The position numbers were made by a program, and so were the translations under genes. 21,397 nucleotides of DNA from Balneolales bacterium. Lineage in GTDB: Bacteria > Bacteroidota > Rhodothermia > Balneolales > Natronogracilivirgulaceae. The notes beneath the pieces were generated by a model. It ran no database searches. It had not been told where the DNA came from and was given only the letters and a program-made list of their open reading frames with translations. Of this stretch, positions 3,041 through 10,732 are shown one piece after another. Numbering within the stretch: the first letter of the stretch is position 1; every line of letters starts with the position of its first letter. The DNA is taken from positions 1 to 21,397 of the forward strand of contig SLLW01000083.1 in the NCBI GenBank assembly GCA_007133875.1, read 5' to 3'.

Positions 3041-3141
3041 ATTCCATTCCGCTCACTTTAGACCGACGATTTCCTGGTATTACCGGATTTGCCATCAAGT
3101 ATGATAAGTGAGCAGGGGGCTGACCTGAAAAATTGTTGCAT

Positions 3142-6100
3142 ATGGCGAGGAATAACGCAAACATCTCCTTGTTCTACCTAAGAAGCATATTGTGGTGTGC
3201 ACTTCCCGCTTTCTTTTTGTTGCTGCCCGTTGATACCAACGGCAATGAAAATAAAAACGGACCAGCGCTGTCATTCCACCGGGTTCACCAAGGCCTGACC
3301 AGCAACCAGGTCACAGGTATCCTGCAGGATGTCAACGGCTTTATTTGGGTGGGGACCGACGGTGGCCTGAACCGGTACAACGGCATTCAGTTTGATACGT
3401 ACAGCCATGAGTCAAACGATGAAAACTCGCTGTCCGATAACTATGTAGGATATTTGTTTCAAGACAGCGGCAATAACCTTTGGATTGGAACAAGGAGCGC
3501 TGTTAACCGGTATCGAATTGAGACTGACAACTTTGAGCGGTATCGGTTGTCCGCTGCACCCGGTACCGAGGCTTCTCCCCACGTAACCGCTCAAACAATG
3601 ATTGAGGATCGTTACGGAACATTGTGGGTCTCGGGAGGTCCGGCCGGATTGTACTTCTTCGACGAAGACAAAGACCGGTTTGTGCCGGTCGAAAATCTCA
3701 AATCCAACATCGTAAATACTGTTGTTGAGGGGGAAGATCAGACACTGTGGTTGACAACACGCAACATGGGGCTTCACAAATACCACACAGGTACCGGTGA
3801 CATTACAACATTTCGGCATGATCCGGCAGATACGTCGTCTCTCTCTTCGGATGTCCTTGATCGCATAGTTCGCGATCCTGAAGGCAACATCTGGATAGGC
3901 TCAAGAGTAGGTGGCGTCAACCGGCTGATAACGCAGGAAGATGGCACCATCACCTTCCGCAGGTATATGAATACCCCCGGCAGACCGCTGGTGCTGGGCA
4001 ACAATGCGGTTCAGGTAATGCATGTGGACAGTCAAGGCGATCTCTGGATCGGAAATGATAATGGCGGGCTGCACCTCTATGACCGGGAAAATGACAGGTT
4101 CCATATATATAGCCCATGCGCTAACGATCCACACAGTCTCACACACGAATCCATCTCAGCAGTACTCCGGGATGATGAAGACCGGCTATGGGTTGGAACA
4201 GCACTGACCGGATTGAATGTGGCCGACCCCCACAAAAGAATTTTTCATCATTATCAGCAATCATTTGGAAGTAACGGAGGGCTTAACAACAACATCATCC
4301 GTGATTTCCGGGAGGATGAAAACGGAAACATCTGGGTAGCCACCGATGGTGGCGGGCTGAACTTCTTCAACAGGCAAAACGGTCTTTTTACAGCTTACAT
4401 GCATGATCCGGAAGATCCGGGTTCCATTCAGTCTGATGTCGCCCTTACCCTGGAGAGGGATGAGCAGAACCGGCTATGGGTTGGCTCATATAATGGCGGA
4501 CTGGATATGATGGCCGATGAAGAGCAGGGTACGTTCAAATCATTTCAGGAAGTGTATGAAGTCCCGGATCTATCCCTGAGACATGTTTTCGGAGTGGCAT
4601 TCGACAAGGAAACGGATTATGTATGGATTGCCAATTTTGGTGAGAATCTGGTCAGGTTTGACCGGCGAGCCGGGAACACCGTAATCTTTACACCGGTATC
4701 CGGGGATGATAGCAGTATGGTTTCAACGGAAGTCAATGGGGTCTTTCTGGACAGCAACGGCAATTTGTGGATCCCGACGCTGGAAGGATTGGCGCGGTTG
4801 AAAAAGGAGAACAAGAAAAAAGGGCGGTTTGAGCGCTACTTACCAAAGCCGAATGATCCCGCAAGTATTCCAAGTCTGATCATCAGGCACATCATCGAAG
4901 ACAGCCAGGGGACTATCTGGGTTGCAACAGGCAATGGGTTGGCCAGGTATGATCCGGAAATGAATGGTTTCTATACATATGATCAGACTGATGGACTCCC
5001 TGCAAACGAACTTCGCTCTCTGGAAGAAGATGATTACGGCGACATCTGGATCGGGACGATCAACGGCCTTTCCCGCTTCAATCCCAAAGAAGAGATTTTT
5101 ACAAATTATACGACGACTGACGGATTGCAGGGCGATGAGTTTTCAAGAAATTCCGCCTTCAAGATGAGCAGTGGGGAACTGCTTTTTGGTGGAATGGACG
5201 GATTCAATCTGTTTCATCCCGATAATATCCATGTCAATCCACATGCTCCGCGGGTTTACCTCACCAACTTTCGATTGTTCAACAGGGATGTGAGGATTGG
5301 TGCTGAAGACTCCCCGCTTGACAGGCATATCATGGTCAGCGATACCATAACTCTCTCCCATGATCAAAATGTAATGACATTTGAATTTGTCGCATTGAGT
5401 TATACCAATCCGGAAGGAAATGAATACGCCTATAAGATGGAGGGGTTTGAATCCGATTGGAATTATGTGGGACAACAGCGATCTGCAACTTATACCAATC
5501 TGAATCCGGGAACATATCACTTCCGGGTTAAAGCGTCCAACAACGACGGAGTGTGGAATAAGCAAGGGGCAGTGGTGGCACTTGTGGTCGTTCCACCATT
5601 CTGGCAAACGACATGGTTCTATCTGCTCCTGGTGATACTGATAGCCGGCATGGTCGTAACCGGGTATGCAATGAAGGTCCGGAGCATCAAGGAGCGGAAC
5701 AGGATGCTTGAAATGGAGGTGAACAAACAGACATCTGAGTTGCAACGTGCCAACGAAGATCTGAAGAAACACATCACCGAAAAAGACAAGGTATATTCGG
5801 TGCTGGCTCACGACCTGCGCAATCCCCTGTTTTCGATTATCGGATATCTTGATTATCTGCGGGAATTGTTTCAAACCCAGGGTAAGGATGAAGAAAGTAA
5901 CGAGGAAGTGCGGGGAATCATCAATACGGTTTACAATGCCGCGCGAAACGCCCATCAGTTGCTGGAAAACCTGCTTCAGTGGTCGAAATCAATCGGTGAC
6001 AAGCTGGATGAAAACATTGCGCCCCACAATCTGTCCGATCTTGCTCAGCAAGCTGTTGCAGAAACCCAAGGCCAGGCGGGCATCAAGAACATTACAGTCA

Positions 6101-6492
6101 GGAATAAACTGGATCCAACCAGCCGGGTACTTGCAGACAAAAACATGATTCAGACCGTATTTCGAAACCTCATCGCCAATGCCATCAAGTTCTCCCCGCA
6201 GGAATCGGAAATCACACTGGATGCAAAGGATATCGGGGATTACTATGATGTATCGGTAACAGATACCGGTATGGGAATGAACAAGGAAGAAATAGAGAGT
6301 ATCTTTTCGGGATCGGGCAACCGGACTAAAAAGGGAACCATGGGTGAAAAGGGCTCGGGATTCGGGTTAATGCTTTGCGAGGATTTTGTAATTCGGAACA
6401 ATGGGAAGATCCGGGTCGACAGCGAGCCCGGCAAGGGGAGCAGCTTTCGTTTTACCTTGCAGAAAGCGGACGGAAAGGCCGTTGATTCCTGA
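3142..6492 (+). CDS. Membrane sensor histidine kinase with propeller (Reg_prop) and Y_Y_Y sensor domains
   Basis: The 1116-residue product (from ATG 3142; a TTG at 3133 is also in frame and lies 13 nt after AGGGGG) starts with a signal segment (LWCALPAFFLLLP). Next come many two-component-propeller repeats (pattern GLTSNQVTGILQDVNGFIWVGT, recurring as NIWIG/LWVGT up to about residue 690), which build the periplasmic ligand-binding propellers. A Y_Y_Y domain (about 755-820) leads to one membrane helix (about 826-848) and a coiled coil. The cytoplasmic part has an H-box (AHDLRNPLFSIIGYL, H890), an N-box (NLIANAIKFS), a G1 motif (DTGMGM) and a G2 motif (GEKGSGFGL), so phosphotransfer should work. 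Unlike the hybrid (HTCS) kinases that share this sensor, it ends after the ATPase domain, with no receiver or AraC domain. No response regulator is adjacent. The signal is unknown; in relatives it is often a glycan. Confidence 0.93.
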   Translation: MARNNANISLFYLRSILWCALPAFFLLLPVDTNGNENKNGPALSFHRVHQGLTSNQVTGILQDVNGFIWVGTDGGLNRYNGIQFDTYSHESNDENSLSDNYVGYLFQDSGNNLWIGTRSAVNRYRIETDNFERYRLSAAPGTEASPHVTAQTMIEDRYGTLWVSGGPAGLYFFDEDKDRFVPVENLKSNIVNTVVEGEDQTLWLTTRNMGLHKYHTGTGDITTFRHDPADTSSLSSDVLDRIVRDPEGNIWIGSRVGGVNRLITQEDGTITFRRYMNTPGRPLVLGNNAVQVMHVDSQGDLWIGNDNGGLHLYDRENDRFHIYSPCANDPHSLTHESISAVLRDDEDRLWVGTALTGLNVADPHKRIFHHYQQSFGSNGGLNNNIIRDFREDENGNIWVATDGGGLNFFNRQNGLFTAYMHDPEDPGSIQSDVALTLERDEQNRLWVGSYNGGLDMMADEEQGTFKSFQEVYEVPDLSLRHVFGVAFDKETDYVWIANFGENLVRFDRRAGNTVIFTPVSGDDSSMVSTEVNGVFLDSNGNLWIPTLEGLARLKKENKKKGRFERYLPKPNDPASIPSLIIRHIIEDSQGTIWVATGNGLARYDPEMNGFYTYDQTDGLPANELRSLEEDDYGDIWIGTINGLSRFNPKEEIFTNYTTTDGLQGDEFSRNSAFKMSSGELLFGGMDGFNLFHPDNIHVNPHAPRVYLTNFRLFNRDVRIGAEDSPLDRHIMVSDTITLSHDQNVMTFEFVALSYTNPEGNEYAYKMEGFESDWNYVGQQRSATYTNLNPGTYHFRVKASNNDGVWNKQGAVVALVVVPPFWQTTWFYLLLVILIAGMVVTGYAMKVRSIKERNRMLEMEVNKQTSELQRANEDLKKHITEKDKVYSVLAHDLRNPLFSIIGYLDYLRELFQTQGKDEESNEEVRGIINTVYNAARNAHQLLENLLQWSKSIGDKLDENIAPHNLSDLAQQAVAETQGQAGIKNITVRNKLDPTSRVLADKNMIQTVFRNLIANAIKFSPQESEITLDAKDIGDYYDVSVTDTGMGMNKEEIESIFSGSGNRTKKGTMGEKGSGFGLMLCEDFVIRNNGKIRVDSEPGKGSSFRFTLQKADGKAVDS

Positions 6493-6751: not shown

Positions 6752-8779
6752 ATGCGGATTTTTCTTGATGCCACTACCATAACACGCAGACAAAGCGGTA
6801 CCGGAACGTACACGCGCAACATACTGCAATCACTTCCGCATATACCCGGCACTGACCATGTATATGCAGCTGCGGGTTCGGATACCAGCAACTTCCTACC
6901 TCTTCCCGAAAAGACGACACTGATTCACAAACACCCGTCTCCGCACCGGGTTTTGAATTATCAGCTCATCGGAAATCGCGACCGTATCCCTGCCGACCTG
7001 GCGATATTTCCCAACTACTTTATGCCTTTTTTCTGGGAAATCCCTTCCGCCGTGACAGTGCACGATCTCTCTTTTCTTTCTCATCCGCATTGTTACTCTT
7101 TCAAAATGCGACAGTGGTACCGGCGGCGAATCAGGCACAGTGTCGATAAAGCCATGTACTTCCTTACTGTGAGCGAAGCTTCGGCCCGGCAGATAACCCG
7201 GTACCTGGGTATTCCGCGCGACCGTATTCTGGTTCATCCACCTTGTTGGCTGGAGCCCAAACAAATTGTGCCGCCCGAAGAACGGACAAAAACCCTGCTG
7301 TATCTCGGCAACATGGAACCCAAGAAAAATGTCCTGACCCTCATCGAGGTGTTCAATCACAGCGGACTGAACAATTATCGACTTGAGCTGGTGGGTAAGC
7401 TGCACGCCGGCGGATCCTGGCTACGCCGGTTTCACCATCTCGTAGGCGGCTCGGACCGCGTTACCTGGACAGGGTATCTTTCGGATGACGAGGTGCAGCA
7501 ACGCCTGTCCGGTGCTTCCGGATTTATAAATCTGAGCTATATTGAAGGGTTTGGCCTGCCTCACGCAGAGGCGCTTTCAGTGGGGACACCCTGCCTGATT
7601 TCAGACGATGCTGCCATGCAGGAAGTCAGCGGTGGCCGATCGCTTGTGACGGATCCTTACGACACCGCACAGATATCCCGGCAAATGCGTGCGCTTGCTG
7701 ATTTCGATTTTGACAATGCGCGGCGCCAGGCCACTGAAATGTGGGAACGATTCTCCAGAAAAAAGTACATGGAAAGCATGGAAGAGATTACCGACCGTCT
7801 CAATTCCGGAAATACATCTTTGTTTCCCGGGTTTGGTGCGGAACGCCCGAATAAGACAACCGGGGTCCTTGCCACGGCATCCTATGCCGCCGTGTTTGGT
7901 CAACCGCTGTCAACTGACAAAATGTATCAGGCTTTTCCACTTCCGGTTGGCGGAGAGCAGGAAGTACGTTATGAAGCCGGTCGTCTGGCCAGGCTGCACC
8001 CAGGACTCTTCTCGATGTACCGTGACCGGTTCCATATCCTGCAGCATACCCCTGTTTCCAACATTCGAAAAGTGGATGATCGAGGCGTCCATTCCCGGGT
8101 GCGACGACGACACCAGCGGCTGCTTCGGTTGATTGGAGGAGTTCCGATGGTCAGAGCGGTTTACTATTCCGGAGGCACAGTTCACCAGAACAGCCTTTAC
8201 GACACGCCCGATCTTGATCTGTTAATTGTTACCCGGAAAAATGCGGTCTGGATTTCGTACCTGATCATCCGTTTGCTGAGTATCATTATGCTTCGAAAAG
8301 ACAGCTGTTGCAGCAACTATCTGGTTGACGAGCATGCCCAGGAGATTTTCTGGCAGCGGGATTACTATACTGCATTTCAACTTATATTTTTGAAGCAGGT
8401 TTTCCGCAAGCCGGGGACGATGCATATCCGGCAGTGTAATCCATGGATACGGCATTATTTCCCGAATTCACCGGAAATTTCCATCAACACGGATCATATT
8501 CCGACGTTACAAGAAAGATTAGCCGGTCCGGAGCCATTGGCCTCCCGGTTTATATTTGCGGTGAATCTTGCTGTCATGCGCCTTTTTTCATCCCGTTGGG
8601 AAAAGCGGGATAAAAAGAACCACAGCGGCGGACTGATGTGGGACGCTTTTCGTATCAAGCTGCATAATAACGATCATCGCCCATGGGTCTACCGGAGATA
8701 TGATGACATTCTGCTAAACACGCTCGGCCAGATCACTCCGTCAACCCGCGAAAATTACCGGAGAGCATCCGGAAATTGA
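6752..8779 (+). CDS. GT4 glycosyltransferase fused to winged-helix and nucleotidyltransferase-like domains
   Basis: Residues 1 to about 350 form a complete GT-B, family 4 glycosyltransferase. The N-terminus has SGTGTYTRNIL and the C-terminal half carries the EX7E donor-site motif E265-GFGLPHA-E273 followed by SVGTPCLISD. This part probably moves a sugar from an NDP-sugar to an unknown acceptor at the inner membrane face. From about 365 the chain continues with a winged-helix-like segment (TASYAAVFGQPLS) and a polymerase-beta-type nucleotidyltransferase motif (S473-G474-G475 ... D487-L-D489-LLIVT). A family-typical helical tail with CNPWIRHYFPNSPE follows. The second half alone is the usual full length of a separate bacterial family (wHTH + NTase), so this is a genuine two-protein fusion. 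ATG 6752 is the first start after an in-frame stop at 6701, but no Shine-Dalgarno is seen. The epimerase gene follows after 15 nt. Confidence 0.85.
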   Translation: MRIFLDATTITRRQSGTGTYTRNILQSLPHIPGTDHVYAAAGSDTSNFLPLPEKTTLIHKHPSPHRVLNYQLIGNRDRIPADLAIFPNYFMPFFWEIPSAVTVHDLSFLSHPHCYSFKMRQWYRRRIRHSVDKAMYFLTVSEASARQITRYLGIPRDRILVHPPCWLEPKQIVPPEERTKTLLYLGNMEPKKNVLTLIEVFNHSGLNNYRLELVGKLHAGGSWLRRFHHLVGGSDRVTWTGYLSDDEVQQRLSGASGFINLSYIEGFGLPHAEALSVGTPCLISDDAAMQEVSGGRSLVTDPYDTAQISRQMRALADFDFDNARRQATEMWERFSRKKYMESMEEITDRLNSGNTSLFPGFGAERPNKTTGVLATASYAAVFGQPLSTDKMYQAFPLPVGGEQEVRYEAGRLARLHPGLFSMYRDRFHILQHTPVSNIRKVDDRGVHSRVRRRHQRLLRLIGGVPMVRAVYYSGGTVHQNSLYDTPDLDLLIVTRKNAVWISYLIIRLLSIIMLRKDSCCSNYLVDEHAQEIFWQRDYYTAFQLIFLKQVFRKPGTMHIRQCNPWIRHYFPNSPEISINTDHIPTLQERLAGPEPLASRFIFAVNLAVMRLFSSRWEKRDKKNHSGGLMWDAFRIKLHNNDHRPWVYRRYDDILLNTLGQITPSTRENYRRASGN

Positions 8780-8794
8780 TAACAGCTATCTGAA

Positions 8795-9880
8795 ATGGCC
8801 GCCAAAGTTGAAACAAACAGCATGAACAACAGCTCGCCACAGGCAATGGTGATCGGCGGGGGCGGATACATAGGCTCGGAGGTGGTACGCACACTGTCAG
8901 CCCGGGGGTTTCGGATCACAGCTCTGCATCATCACAACCCGGTCCGGGGGGATGGGGTCCGAAGCATTAAAGGCGATTTGCGAACCTTTGACTGGAGCCG
9001 TCTGGAGGATGATCTTCCTGATGTGATTATCCACAGTGGCAGGATTCCGGGACGCACTTGGCCCGGACGTATTCTGGCCGGGATGCAGGGCCGGCGGGCC
9101 AATGCCCGGCTGATGAAATGGCTGAATGGGATACCTGTTCCGCCGGCACTGGTGTACGTATCAGGCACATTGGTTTACGGTTCACGAGGTGAGCTTGAGA
9201 CGGACGAATCCGCGCCGCTGAATCCAGTCGGTTTTCAGAAATATTATGTTCAGGCGGAGTACCCTTTTCTTAGTGCTGCCAAAAATGGAAACGTGCCGGT
9301 ATATATCACCCGGGTGCCCTGGGTGCTCGGTCCAGACTCCTGGTTTCGGCAATTTTACTGGCGTGCTATGCAGAATCAGCACGAAATTCCCTGCTTCGGC
9401 GACGGTGAAAACCTGATGTCTGTTGTACATCTCCGGGATTGTGCCGACTTGATTGTGCGGATATCAGAAGCGGCCGGCGGCAATGCGATGATGCAACGGC
9501 CGGGAGGTGCTGTTTGGGATGGTGCGCGTGTTTCTGTTCGGGATGATATGAATGCCGGAAGCCCTGATGGTATACACGATGGTCTTGAGGATGAAGCAGC
9601 CAGTCCGGGAATCTACAACATTGCGACGATACCGGCGGTATCCCAGCAAAGATTCTGCCAAACCCTGTCCGGAATCACTGGAATTCCGGTGCGGTACTAT
9701 GACGAGCGACGGCTAAGAGCCAGCTATGGCAAAACGGTTACAGAAGCGCTTACGTTTTCACTATCGCTGGCATCCGTACGCGATGTGGTGAATAGTTGGC
9801 ACCCCCAATTTCCGACGGTCGGGACGGCGCTTGATGATGTGGTCCGAAGTCTCGGGTACCGAAATGTTGTGGGATTATAG
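8795..9880 (+). CDS. NAD-dependent epimerase/dehydratase-like protein (atypical SDR)
   Basis: The 361-residue protein begins with the extended-SDR nucleotide-binding motif GGGGYIG (about residues 20-26) and has the YVSGTLVYG strand (about 119-128) that places the active-site serine or threonine. It also has RVPWVLGPDSWF and VVHLRDCADLI, all typical of sugar-nucleotide epimerases and reductases. The catalytic YxxxK is degraded: the sequence is Y150-Y151-V-Q-A-E155, with glutamate or alanine where the lysine should be. Normal epimerase chemistry is therefore uncertain. Residues about 225-270 are a glycine/methionine-rich insertion. ATG 8795 starts 15 nt after the fusion gene; ATG 8822 (MNNSSPQAMV) is an alternative nearer the core. 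The tight spacing suggests one transcript with the glycosyltransferase, hence glycan or glycolipid metabolism, substrate unknown. Confidence 0.82.
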   Translation: MAAKVETNSMNNSSPQAMVIGGGGYIGSEVVRTLSARGFRITALHHHNPVRGDGVRSIKGDLRTFDWSRLEDDLPDVIIHSGRIPGRTWPGRILAGMQGRRANARLMKWLNGIPVPPALVYVSGTLVYGSRGELETDESAPLNPVGFQKYYVQAEYPFLSAAKNGNVPVYITRVPWVLGPDSWFRQFYWRAMQNQHEIPCFGDGENLMSVVHLRDCADLIVRISEAAGGNAMMQRPGGAVWDGARVSVRDDMNAGSPDGIHDGLEDEAASPGIYNIATIPAVSQQRFCQTLSGITGIPVRYYDERRLRASYGKTVTEALTFSLSLASVRDVVNSWHPQFPTVGTALDDVVRSLGYRNVVGL

Positions 9881-9910: not shown

Positions 9911-10732
9911 TCAGGAAGTGGCCGGCCGTTTCATCACATAGAGGCTGTACTCACCGATATTCCAGAGCGGCGTTCGGGACATCAGACGGTCAAATTCCCA
10001 TAATTTTTCAGAGAAACCTCCCAGCCCGGGAAGCAGATGAGACCGGTACCAGGCAGGGTAGAAAATGCTGTATCCGCGTTTGGCGGTGACATTAAAATGG
10101 GGGCCAAAGGCTCTTTTGATATCCCCGTGAGAGAGGACGCGACTGGGGATTTTCCGTTGATCCGAATAGCCCCGCCACCTTTTGAATATCCGTTCAAAGG
10201 CTTTGTCGAATCGTCCCTTGACCAGCCAAAGCGGAATCTCGGTGATATAGAAGCGATTGACAAAGGTCAGCACAAGGGTAGCATCATCCGTACAGAACGA
10301 GGCAATTTCCCGGGCAGCCGTTTCAAGATTAAACACGGTGTTCAGTCCGCCGAAAAAAACATAAACCAGATCAAATTTCTGGTCCGGAAACAGCCGCGGC
10401 ACATCCTCAACGGAGCCTGTCCCGGTCCTGACATTATCGTATCCGAGTGAACGGGCATTTTGTTGCGTGAGCCGGATCATCTCCGGCGATACGTCAAGGG
10501 CATACACCATACTCCCGGGGTAACGTCCGGCAAAATAGCACACATCAAACCCGGGGCCGCATCCGATTTCCAGTACATTTCTGAATGGATATTGTTCGGT
10601 CTCACTGCGAAAAGAGGTGCGGATTTTCCTGAGTACCGGATTTTCTTTGTACCGCTGCTCAAAATCCCGGGCATCATCGTCATAATAGGATGCCACTTCA
10701 GCGTAGTAGGTTTCGGGTTTTTGGTACGGCAT
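9911..10732 (-). CDS. Class I SAM-dependent methyltransferase
   Basis: The 273-residue cytosolic protein has the SAM-binding motif I NVLEIGCGPGFDVCYFA (about residues 50-66), an acidic end of strand 2 in VYALDVSPEMI, the motif GSVEDVPRLFPDQKFDLVYV with the post-II/III elements, and ATLVLTFVNRF after it. The C-terminal half (KGYSIFYPAWYRSHLLPG ... LWNIGEYSLYVM) looks like a substrate-recognition cap, but the acceptor cannot be named. It is convergent with the epimerase gene, 30 nt apart. In related genomes such methyltransferases often lie near glycosyltransferases, so a role in modifying the same glycan or lipid is plausible but inferred. The start ATG is the complement of 10730-10732; no strong Shine-Dalgarno is seen. 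Confidence 0.87.
   Translation of the reverse strand: MPYQKPETYYAEVASYYDDDARDFEQRYKENPVLRKIRTSFRSETEQYPFRNVLEIGCGPGFDVCYFAGRYPGSMVYALDVSPEMIRLTQQNARSLGYDNVRTGTGSVEDVPRLFPDQKFDLVYVFFGGLNTVFNLETAAREIASFCTDDATLVLTFVNRFYITEIPLWLVKGRFDKAFERIFKRWRGYSDQRKIPSRVLSHGDIKRAFGPHFNVTAKRGYSIFYPAWYRSHLLPGLGGFSEKLWEFDRLMSRTPLWNIGEYSLYVMKRPATS

Follow-up and report, generated by a model that had tools for sequence, protein, structure and literature searches.

Retaining glycosyltransferases of family GT4 such as MshA, BshA, PimA and WaaG have solved structures, and the Pol-beta type of nucleotidyltransferase (NTase) fold is that of the aminoglycoside nucleotidyltransferases (ANT), including ANT(4'), ANT(4''), AadA and kanamycin nucleotidyltransferase. 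According to the available part of one report, a GT4-type enzyme and a phosphate-group transferase are coupled, in one chain or one pathway, in the TagF-like capsule polymerases Cps3D/Cps7D and the capsule protein CpsC (TPR plus LicD NTase) (PMC11666461); in the lasso peptide pseudomycoidin, an annotated nucleotidyltransferase, PsmN, has been connected with the attachment of a hexose to a phosphorylated product (PMC9266682). Here we describe a gene of a Balneolales bacterium in which a GT4 glycosyltransferase is joined to a winged-helix/NTase protein. It lies on contig SLLW01000083.1 (assembly GCA_007133875.1), of which the whole stretch of 21,397 nucleotides is referred to as the window. No paper on the GT4 + winged helix + NTase architecture was found in the open-access library searched, in agreement with the earlier note on this DNA, which knew of no such system; the joined domains are each of known fold.

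The fusion departs from all of these systems. Unlike MshA, BshA, PimA and WaaG, it carries a second transferase-like domain, and the second glutamate of its EX7E motif is mostly aspartate in the fusion clade. Unlike the aminoglycoside nucleotidyltransferases, to which the NTase half is 9-14% identical in the aligned part, it has no family-model match, a winged helix in front and a GT4 domain attached. The second transferase of Cps3D/Cps7D is a GT-B glycerophosphotransferase and not an NTase fold, and the CDP-glycerol glycerophosphotransferase family PF04464 is not among the five Pfam families that match the fusion. For PsmN, a GT4 domain is unmentioned in the available portion of PMC9266682. 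A close counterpart is a stand-alone protein of Bacteroidota, annotated as 'hypothetical protein' or 'predicted nucleotidyltransferase' (e.g. L030:8283-9293, P0024-P0133), which is homologous to the second half of the fusion along most of its length and shares with it the order of domains and the motifs SG-x, DhD, CxNY and N-x-W, but which is mostly about 290-345 amino acids (aa) long, lacks GT4, adjoins a B12/radical S-adenosylmethionine (SAM) gene and has another C-terminal part.

The fusion is encoded by a single ATG frame of 675 aa without interruption (Table 1). AlphaFold models the full-length protein as two well-folded halves (mean predicted local distance difference test score, pLDDT, 87.4; predicted template-modelling score 0.84) and the second half alone with a mean pLDDT of 88.9. 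GT4 models of Pfam cover residues 68-316, namely PF00534 (E 4e-19; 69.2 bits against a cut-off of 26.4), PF13692 (59.5 against 27) and PF13439 (29.5 against 28.5); the first half is thus a GT4 member by family model and fold, with a relaxed EX7E motif. Five Pfam families in all match the protein at E<=1, and none matches the second half alone (7823-8776) at that threshold. This half belongs to the Pol-beta NTase fold by its hG[GS] motif, as defined in the available part of PMC6965139, its [DE]h[DE]h motif and its core fold, save for the third acidic residue. The architecture that the earlier note had proposed is thereby borne out, as are its SGG motif (S473-G475) and its numbering of E265, E273 and D487/D489. 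Two other leads were discarded. The 'GT4-conflict' family PF20706 (35 bits in the fusion) is a label found on numerous ordinary GT4 proteins, and the match was read as overall resemblance to GT4; a phage origin was rejected, the only PHROGs matches being those of the GT4 half to glycosyltransferases.

The joining is neither an error nor a recent accident. Among 97 genomes (the window's own and others of the same genus, family and order), the NTase domain occurs in 15, and a profile of the stand-alone proteins retrieves the same 15; it is fused to GT4 in 14 of them, the sole stand-alone copy being that of G016 (337 aa). The whole fused frame, 655-798 aa long, is present in twelve of the 14, and a contig edge truncates the fusions of G009 and G013, which nevertheless start within the GT4 half. 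A sequencing error or lost stop, or separate genes in the relatives, which the earlier note had named as what would undo the finding, is rejected, for the frame is free of stops in other genomes. In a protein search, all 22 matches are fusions, the fragments P0012 and P0018 still including GT4 sequence, although the length window of this search is blind to proteins below about 370 aa and the count is no measure of fusion frequency. Two of the 22 are named homologues, both of Balneolales; one, P0003, comes from Balneolales strain ANBcel1, which is in pure culture, according to the accessible text of PMC11700989. Genomes of 84,980 named species, scanned with two peptide patterns of the fused clade that divergent fusions would escape, gave ten fusion loci, nine from Balneolaceae, Balneolales or Balneolia and one from a 'Bacteroidetes bacterium'.

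The second half normally stands alone, as the earlier note had stated. Its stand-alone relatives number 110 proteins of 185-402 aa, the named ones being Bacteroidota; no dedicated Pfam or NCBIfam model was found for the family, which shows many weak PF01909 matches. The family is matched in 30 of 296 genomes of the phylum, and a frame long enough for a fusion exists only in the three matching genomes of this order. A tree built from 14 fused and 82 stand-alone NTase domains sets the fused rows apart from the rest by a branch supported at 100/100, so that a single joining event suffices. The window's own genome has a second, diverged fusion on a different contig (L031, G000:C123:1-3498; 34% identity), which groups with the fusion of G008 in the tree (support 91/65).

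Both halves of the fusion are under purifying selection. In three pairs, the ratio of non-synonymous to synonymous substitution rates (dN/dS, NG86) is 0.091, 0.086 and 0.118 for the NTase core, 0.134, 0.165 and 0.144 for the GT4 half, 0.19-0.24 for the winged helix and about 0.25, where defined, for the C-terminal part; synonymous divergence in these pairs is high (0.6-1.6 where defined by NG86) and some YN00 values failed. The NTase core lies below the GT4 half in all three pairs by NG86 and in two of three by YN00, with one reversed. A tighter NTase core is not general, since a fourth pair (L024/L022, NG86) gives nearly equal values for the GT4 half (0.253) and the second half (0.246). A recent chance fusion is rejected on these ratios together with the spread over 14 genomes, and, as judged from the genomes compared, the joining is confirmed as a lasting one across Balneolales. 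The GT4 and NTase folds are both common; with the two lastingly fused, a pair of orphan activities becomes linked to what is probably a single substrate.

In the GT4 half, K192 and E265 are identical in 22/22 rows of an alignment that covers 22 of 23 fusions (all but P0012), and H104 and D105 in all 21 rows that have a letter there. Position 273, the second glutamate of EX7E, is D in 15, E in 5, M in 1 and N in 1, the window having E. Among the best 120 of 1736 listed, no stand-alone GT4 protein comes close to the GT4 half, the best being 34% identical. Two GT4 genes that adjoin stand-alone NTases (L096.12 and L102.5) share the BLAST cluster of the fusion. P0134, a 'partial' protein of 468 aa that is 40% identical to the GT4 half, may be a cut fusion.

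In the NTase half, S473, G474, G475, D487 and D489 are invariant in the same alignment and T476 nearly so. SGG, D487 and D489 are likewise found in 14/14 fused rows of the alignment used for the tree (14 of the 15 fusion loci; the match of G026 began late, and its sequence has the same motif residues by eye), and the equivalents of D487 and D489 are kept in 81 of its 82 stand-alone rows, which we chose from the 110 relatives. The loss of NTase catalytic residues that the earlier note had considered did not, therefore, occur at these two aspartates. Its statement that both halves are complete stands for the GT4 half and for SGG and D487/D489, and falls short at the third acidic residue (h[DE]h), which is not placeable from the alignment; from strand order we guess that N522 occupies its place. 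C520 is constant in 96/96 rows. Alignments to solved NTases gave insignificant matches (E 1.2 and 0.41) that pair the K478 equivalent with the R of GSxxRG. ANT and MNT proteins tie as the best fold matches, which are modest.

Our preferred, still tentative, reading is that the fusion is a bifunctional glycan-tailoring enzyme, the two halves of which act stepwise on one glycan or glycolipid acceptor. Two observations lead to it: two transferase domains are held together across the order, and the closest folds of the NTase half act on hydroxyls of aminosugars or proteins. The GT4 half would draw on a nucleotide-sugar to glycosylate an acceptor that may be lipid-linked, cyclitol-like or another small molecule built by the module. 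The NTase half, with a metal held by D487/D489, would use a nucleotide donor to place a nucleoside monophosphate (NMP) or another phosphate-linked group on a hydroxyl of the same acceptor, in a chemistry modelled on the aminoglycoside nucleotidyltransferases. The fusion would pass the acceptor from one active site to the other, and the methyltransferase and short-chain dehydrogenase/reductase (SDR) encoded next door would tailor it further. If the NTase half is active, the Pol-beta fold would here serve biosynthesis, with a glycan hydroxyl as its target, and not antibiotic resistance or toxin control. Nucleotidylation of a glycan, one of two functions suggested in the earlier note, survives as one form of this reading.

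NMP transfer by the NTase half is what we infer from its motifs and fold, and several features of the domain make it less certain. Position 475 is G in 14/14 fused rows and S in 50, D in 19 and T in 7 of the 82 stand-alone rows, with others besides; position 478 is H in 14/14 as opposed to K in 81/82, and position 543 is Q in 14/14 as opposed to E in 82/82. These clade-wide changes near the motifs weaken the case for NMP transfer. As for the third acid, the candidates are N522, which is N in 95/96 rows, and D526, which is D in 65/96. Such changes at positions constant or nearly so in the stand-alone relatives (478 and 543), along with the uncertain third acid and the modest fold matches, would suit an NTase half that no longer transfers and instead binds a nucleotide or the acceptor, regulating or positioning the GT4 half. 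We regard this as improbable, because the retention of D487 and D489 in every fused row and the low dN/dS of the core would be unusual for a dead domain. With the motifs constrained yet three neighbouring positions changed, the fused domain looks re-tuned rather than dead.

The group transferred could be either an NMP, as in ANT, or a phospho-alcohol, as in FKRP. In the latter case, the NTase half would be a LicD/FKRP-like transferase that moves phospho-X from cytidine diphosphate (CDP)-X (glycerol, ribitol or choline) onto the sugar just added by GT4, so that sugar and phosphodiester are installed in two steps in the manner of TagF. There is enzymatic precedent in the available parts of two sources: FKRP, of NTase fold, releases cytidine monophosphate and transfers a phospho-polyol (PMC6965139), and a LicD-type NTase takes part in capsule priming, with a GT4-type enzyme and a glycerophosphotransferase joined in Cps3D/Cps7D (PMC11666461). 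The LicD family PF04991, however, is matched neither by the fusion (E<=1) nor by the 96 NTase-family rows (E<=0.1), and no CDP-alcohol gene was noticed beside it, where most neighbours are unannotated and no genome-wide search was made; we thus consider this variant unlikely. MNT antitoxins, which AMPylate HEPN toxins, head the Foldseek list for the NTase half as well as tying with ANT, and might point to a domain that modifies protein, for instance through AMPylation of a partner or of the GT4 half itself, whereby glycosylation would be turned on or off. That seems very unlikely: the neighbour clusters, which do not cover open reading frames (ORFs) below 90 aa, mostly lack annotation and were not searched with HEPN models, hold no recurrent small partner (<190 aa), and the fusion matches nothing in PADLOC.

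The stand-alone relatives reside in a recurrent cassette. At the 20 best loci, taken from 27 matching genomes outside the order (seven weaker or broken ones were left out), a B12/radical-SAM gene is present in 20/20, a methyltransferase in 19/20 and GT4 genes in 12/20, compared with 0/20, 0/20 and 3/20 control stretches drawn from 7 of the same genomes; since these loci supplied part of the sequences behind the radical-SAM and methyltransferase profiles, the first two figures are counts and not independent discoveries. The other function put forward in the earlier note, a coupled donor activation in which the NTase half makes the nucleotide-sugar for the GT4 half, might be read from the presence of both domains in a single chain, but the cassette associates the NTase more often with radical SAM than with GT4. 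Known sugar-1-phosphate nucleotidylyltransferases, moreover, have a fold other than the Pol-beta, ANT/MNT-like type of this half; donor activation is accordingly unsupported and the least probable of the explanations weighed here.

The methyltransferase of the window belongs with that of the cassette: the cassette profile matches 12 Balneolales proteins at E 1e-39 to 3e-34, and other methyltransferases of those loci at 2e-11 or worse, save for a short profile member at 3e-14. When the radical-SAM protein of G008 was searched for in 40 relatives, among them every one of the 14 fusion genomes, only two, G008 itself and G016, had it. In G008 the fusion is followed by radical SAM, methyltransferase and kinase genes, which we read as an intermediate state. 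The simplest history we can propose would begin with a cassette of NTase, radical SAM and methyltransferase, continue with the joining of GT4 to the NTase, and end with the loss of radical SAM and gain of an SDR in most lines. Two further joinings point the same way: at L106:10241-12421 the B12/radical-SAM enzyme and the cassette methyltransferase form a single chain of 727 aa, and at L100:11750-13450 the methyltransferase is joined to a part that resembles GT29 sialyltransferases (PF00777 at E 3e-4, which is below the cut-off).

One cassette radical-SAM protein scores highest against BchE (177 bits) and HpnJ (146 bits), though well short of either cut-off. On a broader and rather doubtful view, one-chain glycosylation followed by nucleotidylation or phosphodiester decoration of the product could be the end of an undescribed Bacteroidota pathway of winged-helix NTase, BchE/HpnJ-like B12 radical SAM and methyltransferase that makes a cyclitol or sugar lipid with a nucleotidyl or phosphate linkage. 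That an HpnJ-like enzyme fits a cyclitol product is speculation from the weak HpnJ score and from work on hopanoids. The fusion offers a handle on this cassette recurring in Bacteroidota. An amidohydrolase-like family occurs in 7 of 36 context loci, all of them stand-alone (L088, L089, L092, L098, L099, L100 and L102; the one scanned matched PF01979).

Within Balneolales, the SDR and methyltransferase next door probably belong to the module of the fusion. Fusion, SDR (same strand) and methyltransferase (convergent) follow in this order in 12 of 15 fusion loci, the exceptions being G028, G008 and the second copy in the window's genome (SDR only, divergent, at a contig end). Homologues of the methyltransferase (E<=1e-30) and SDR (E<=1e-25) occur in the same 13 of the 97 genomes, all of which have the fusion; this co-occurrence with the NTase has a hypergeometric probability of 2e-14, uncorrected for kinship. 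Neither homologue is found at those cut-offs in G008 or G016. In G028 both are kept though unlinked, the pair lying together near 2.894 Mb and the fusion at 2.037 Mb. The SDR is apparently atypical: with motifs placed by eye, it and its homologues in L017-L027 and L031 keep the GxxGxxG nucleotide-binding motif, and the YxxxK dyad appears as FxxxY in 13/13 aligned homologues. In five loci (three with a Pfam scan), fusion and SDR are separated by a small gene for an APH/RIO-like kinase; in G008 a relative of this gene comes after the cluster of the fusion. Neither the stand-alone NTase nor the SDR is matched by PADLOC, and a defence system was rejected; the PADLOC matches of the methyltransferase to mad2 and of the kinase to MkoA were taken as generic domain matches.

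Table 1. Features of the fusion gene and adjoining genes in the window
Feature	Position	Strand	Description
Fusion gene	6752..8779	+	675 aa; GT4, winged helix, NTase-fold core and C-terminal helical part
GT4 half	6752..7813	+	Residues 1-354; GT-B fold
EX7E motif, E265...E273	7544..7570	+	Invariant Glu at the first position; E or D at the second in 20/22
Linker	7814..7849	+	Residues 355-366; partly low model confidence (357-359, pLDDT<50)
Winged-helix domain	7850..8041	+	Residues 367-430
NTase-fold core (Pol-beta type)	8069..8461	+	Residues 440-570; from structure model and homology to stand-alone proteins
hG[GS] motif, S473-G474-G475	8168..8176	+	From alignments of fused proteins
DhD motif, D487-L-D489	8210..8218	+	From alignments of fused proteins
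RIKLHxxDHR stretch, R634-R643	8651..8680	+	Kept in fused clade, not in stand-alone rows
SDR/epimerase-like gene (PF01370)	8795..9880	+	Starts 15 bp after the fusion
SAM methyltransferase gene	9911..10732	-	Convergent; homologue of the methyltransferase in the cassette of stand-alone NTases

Directly upstream of the fusion, positions 3133-6492 encode a large sensor kinase (Reg_prop propeller, Y_Y_Y, HisKA, HATPase_c), which falls in no recurrent neighbour cluster. In L020, L021 and L028, an ABC-transporter-like gene, recognized by eye, lies upstream of the fusion and divergent from it. The ORFs L028:11036-11461, beside the fusion of G028, and L128:10248-10718, beside its SDR and methyltransferase, begin nearly identically, and the locus looks as if it had been split by a repeat.
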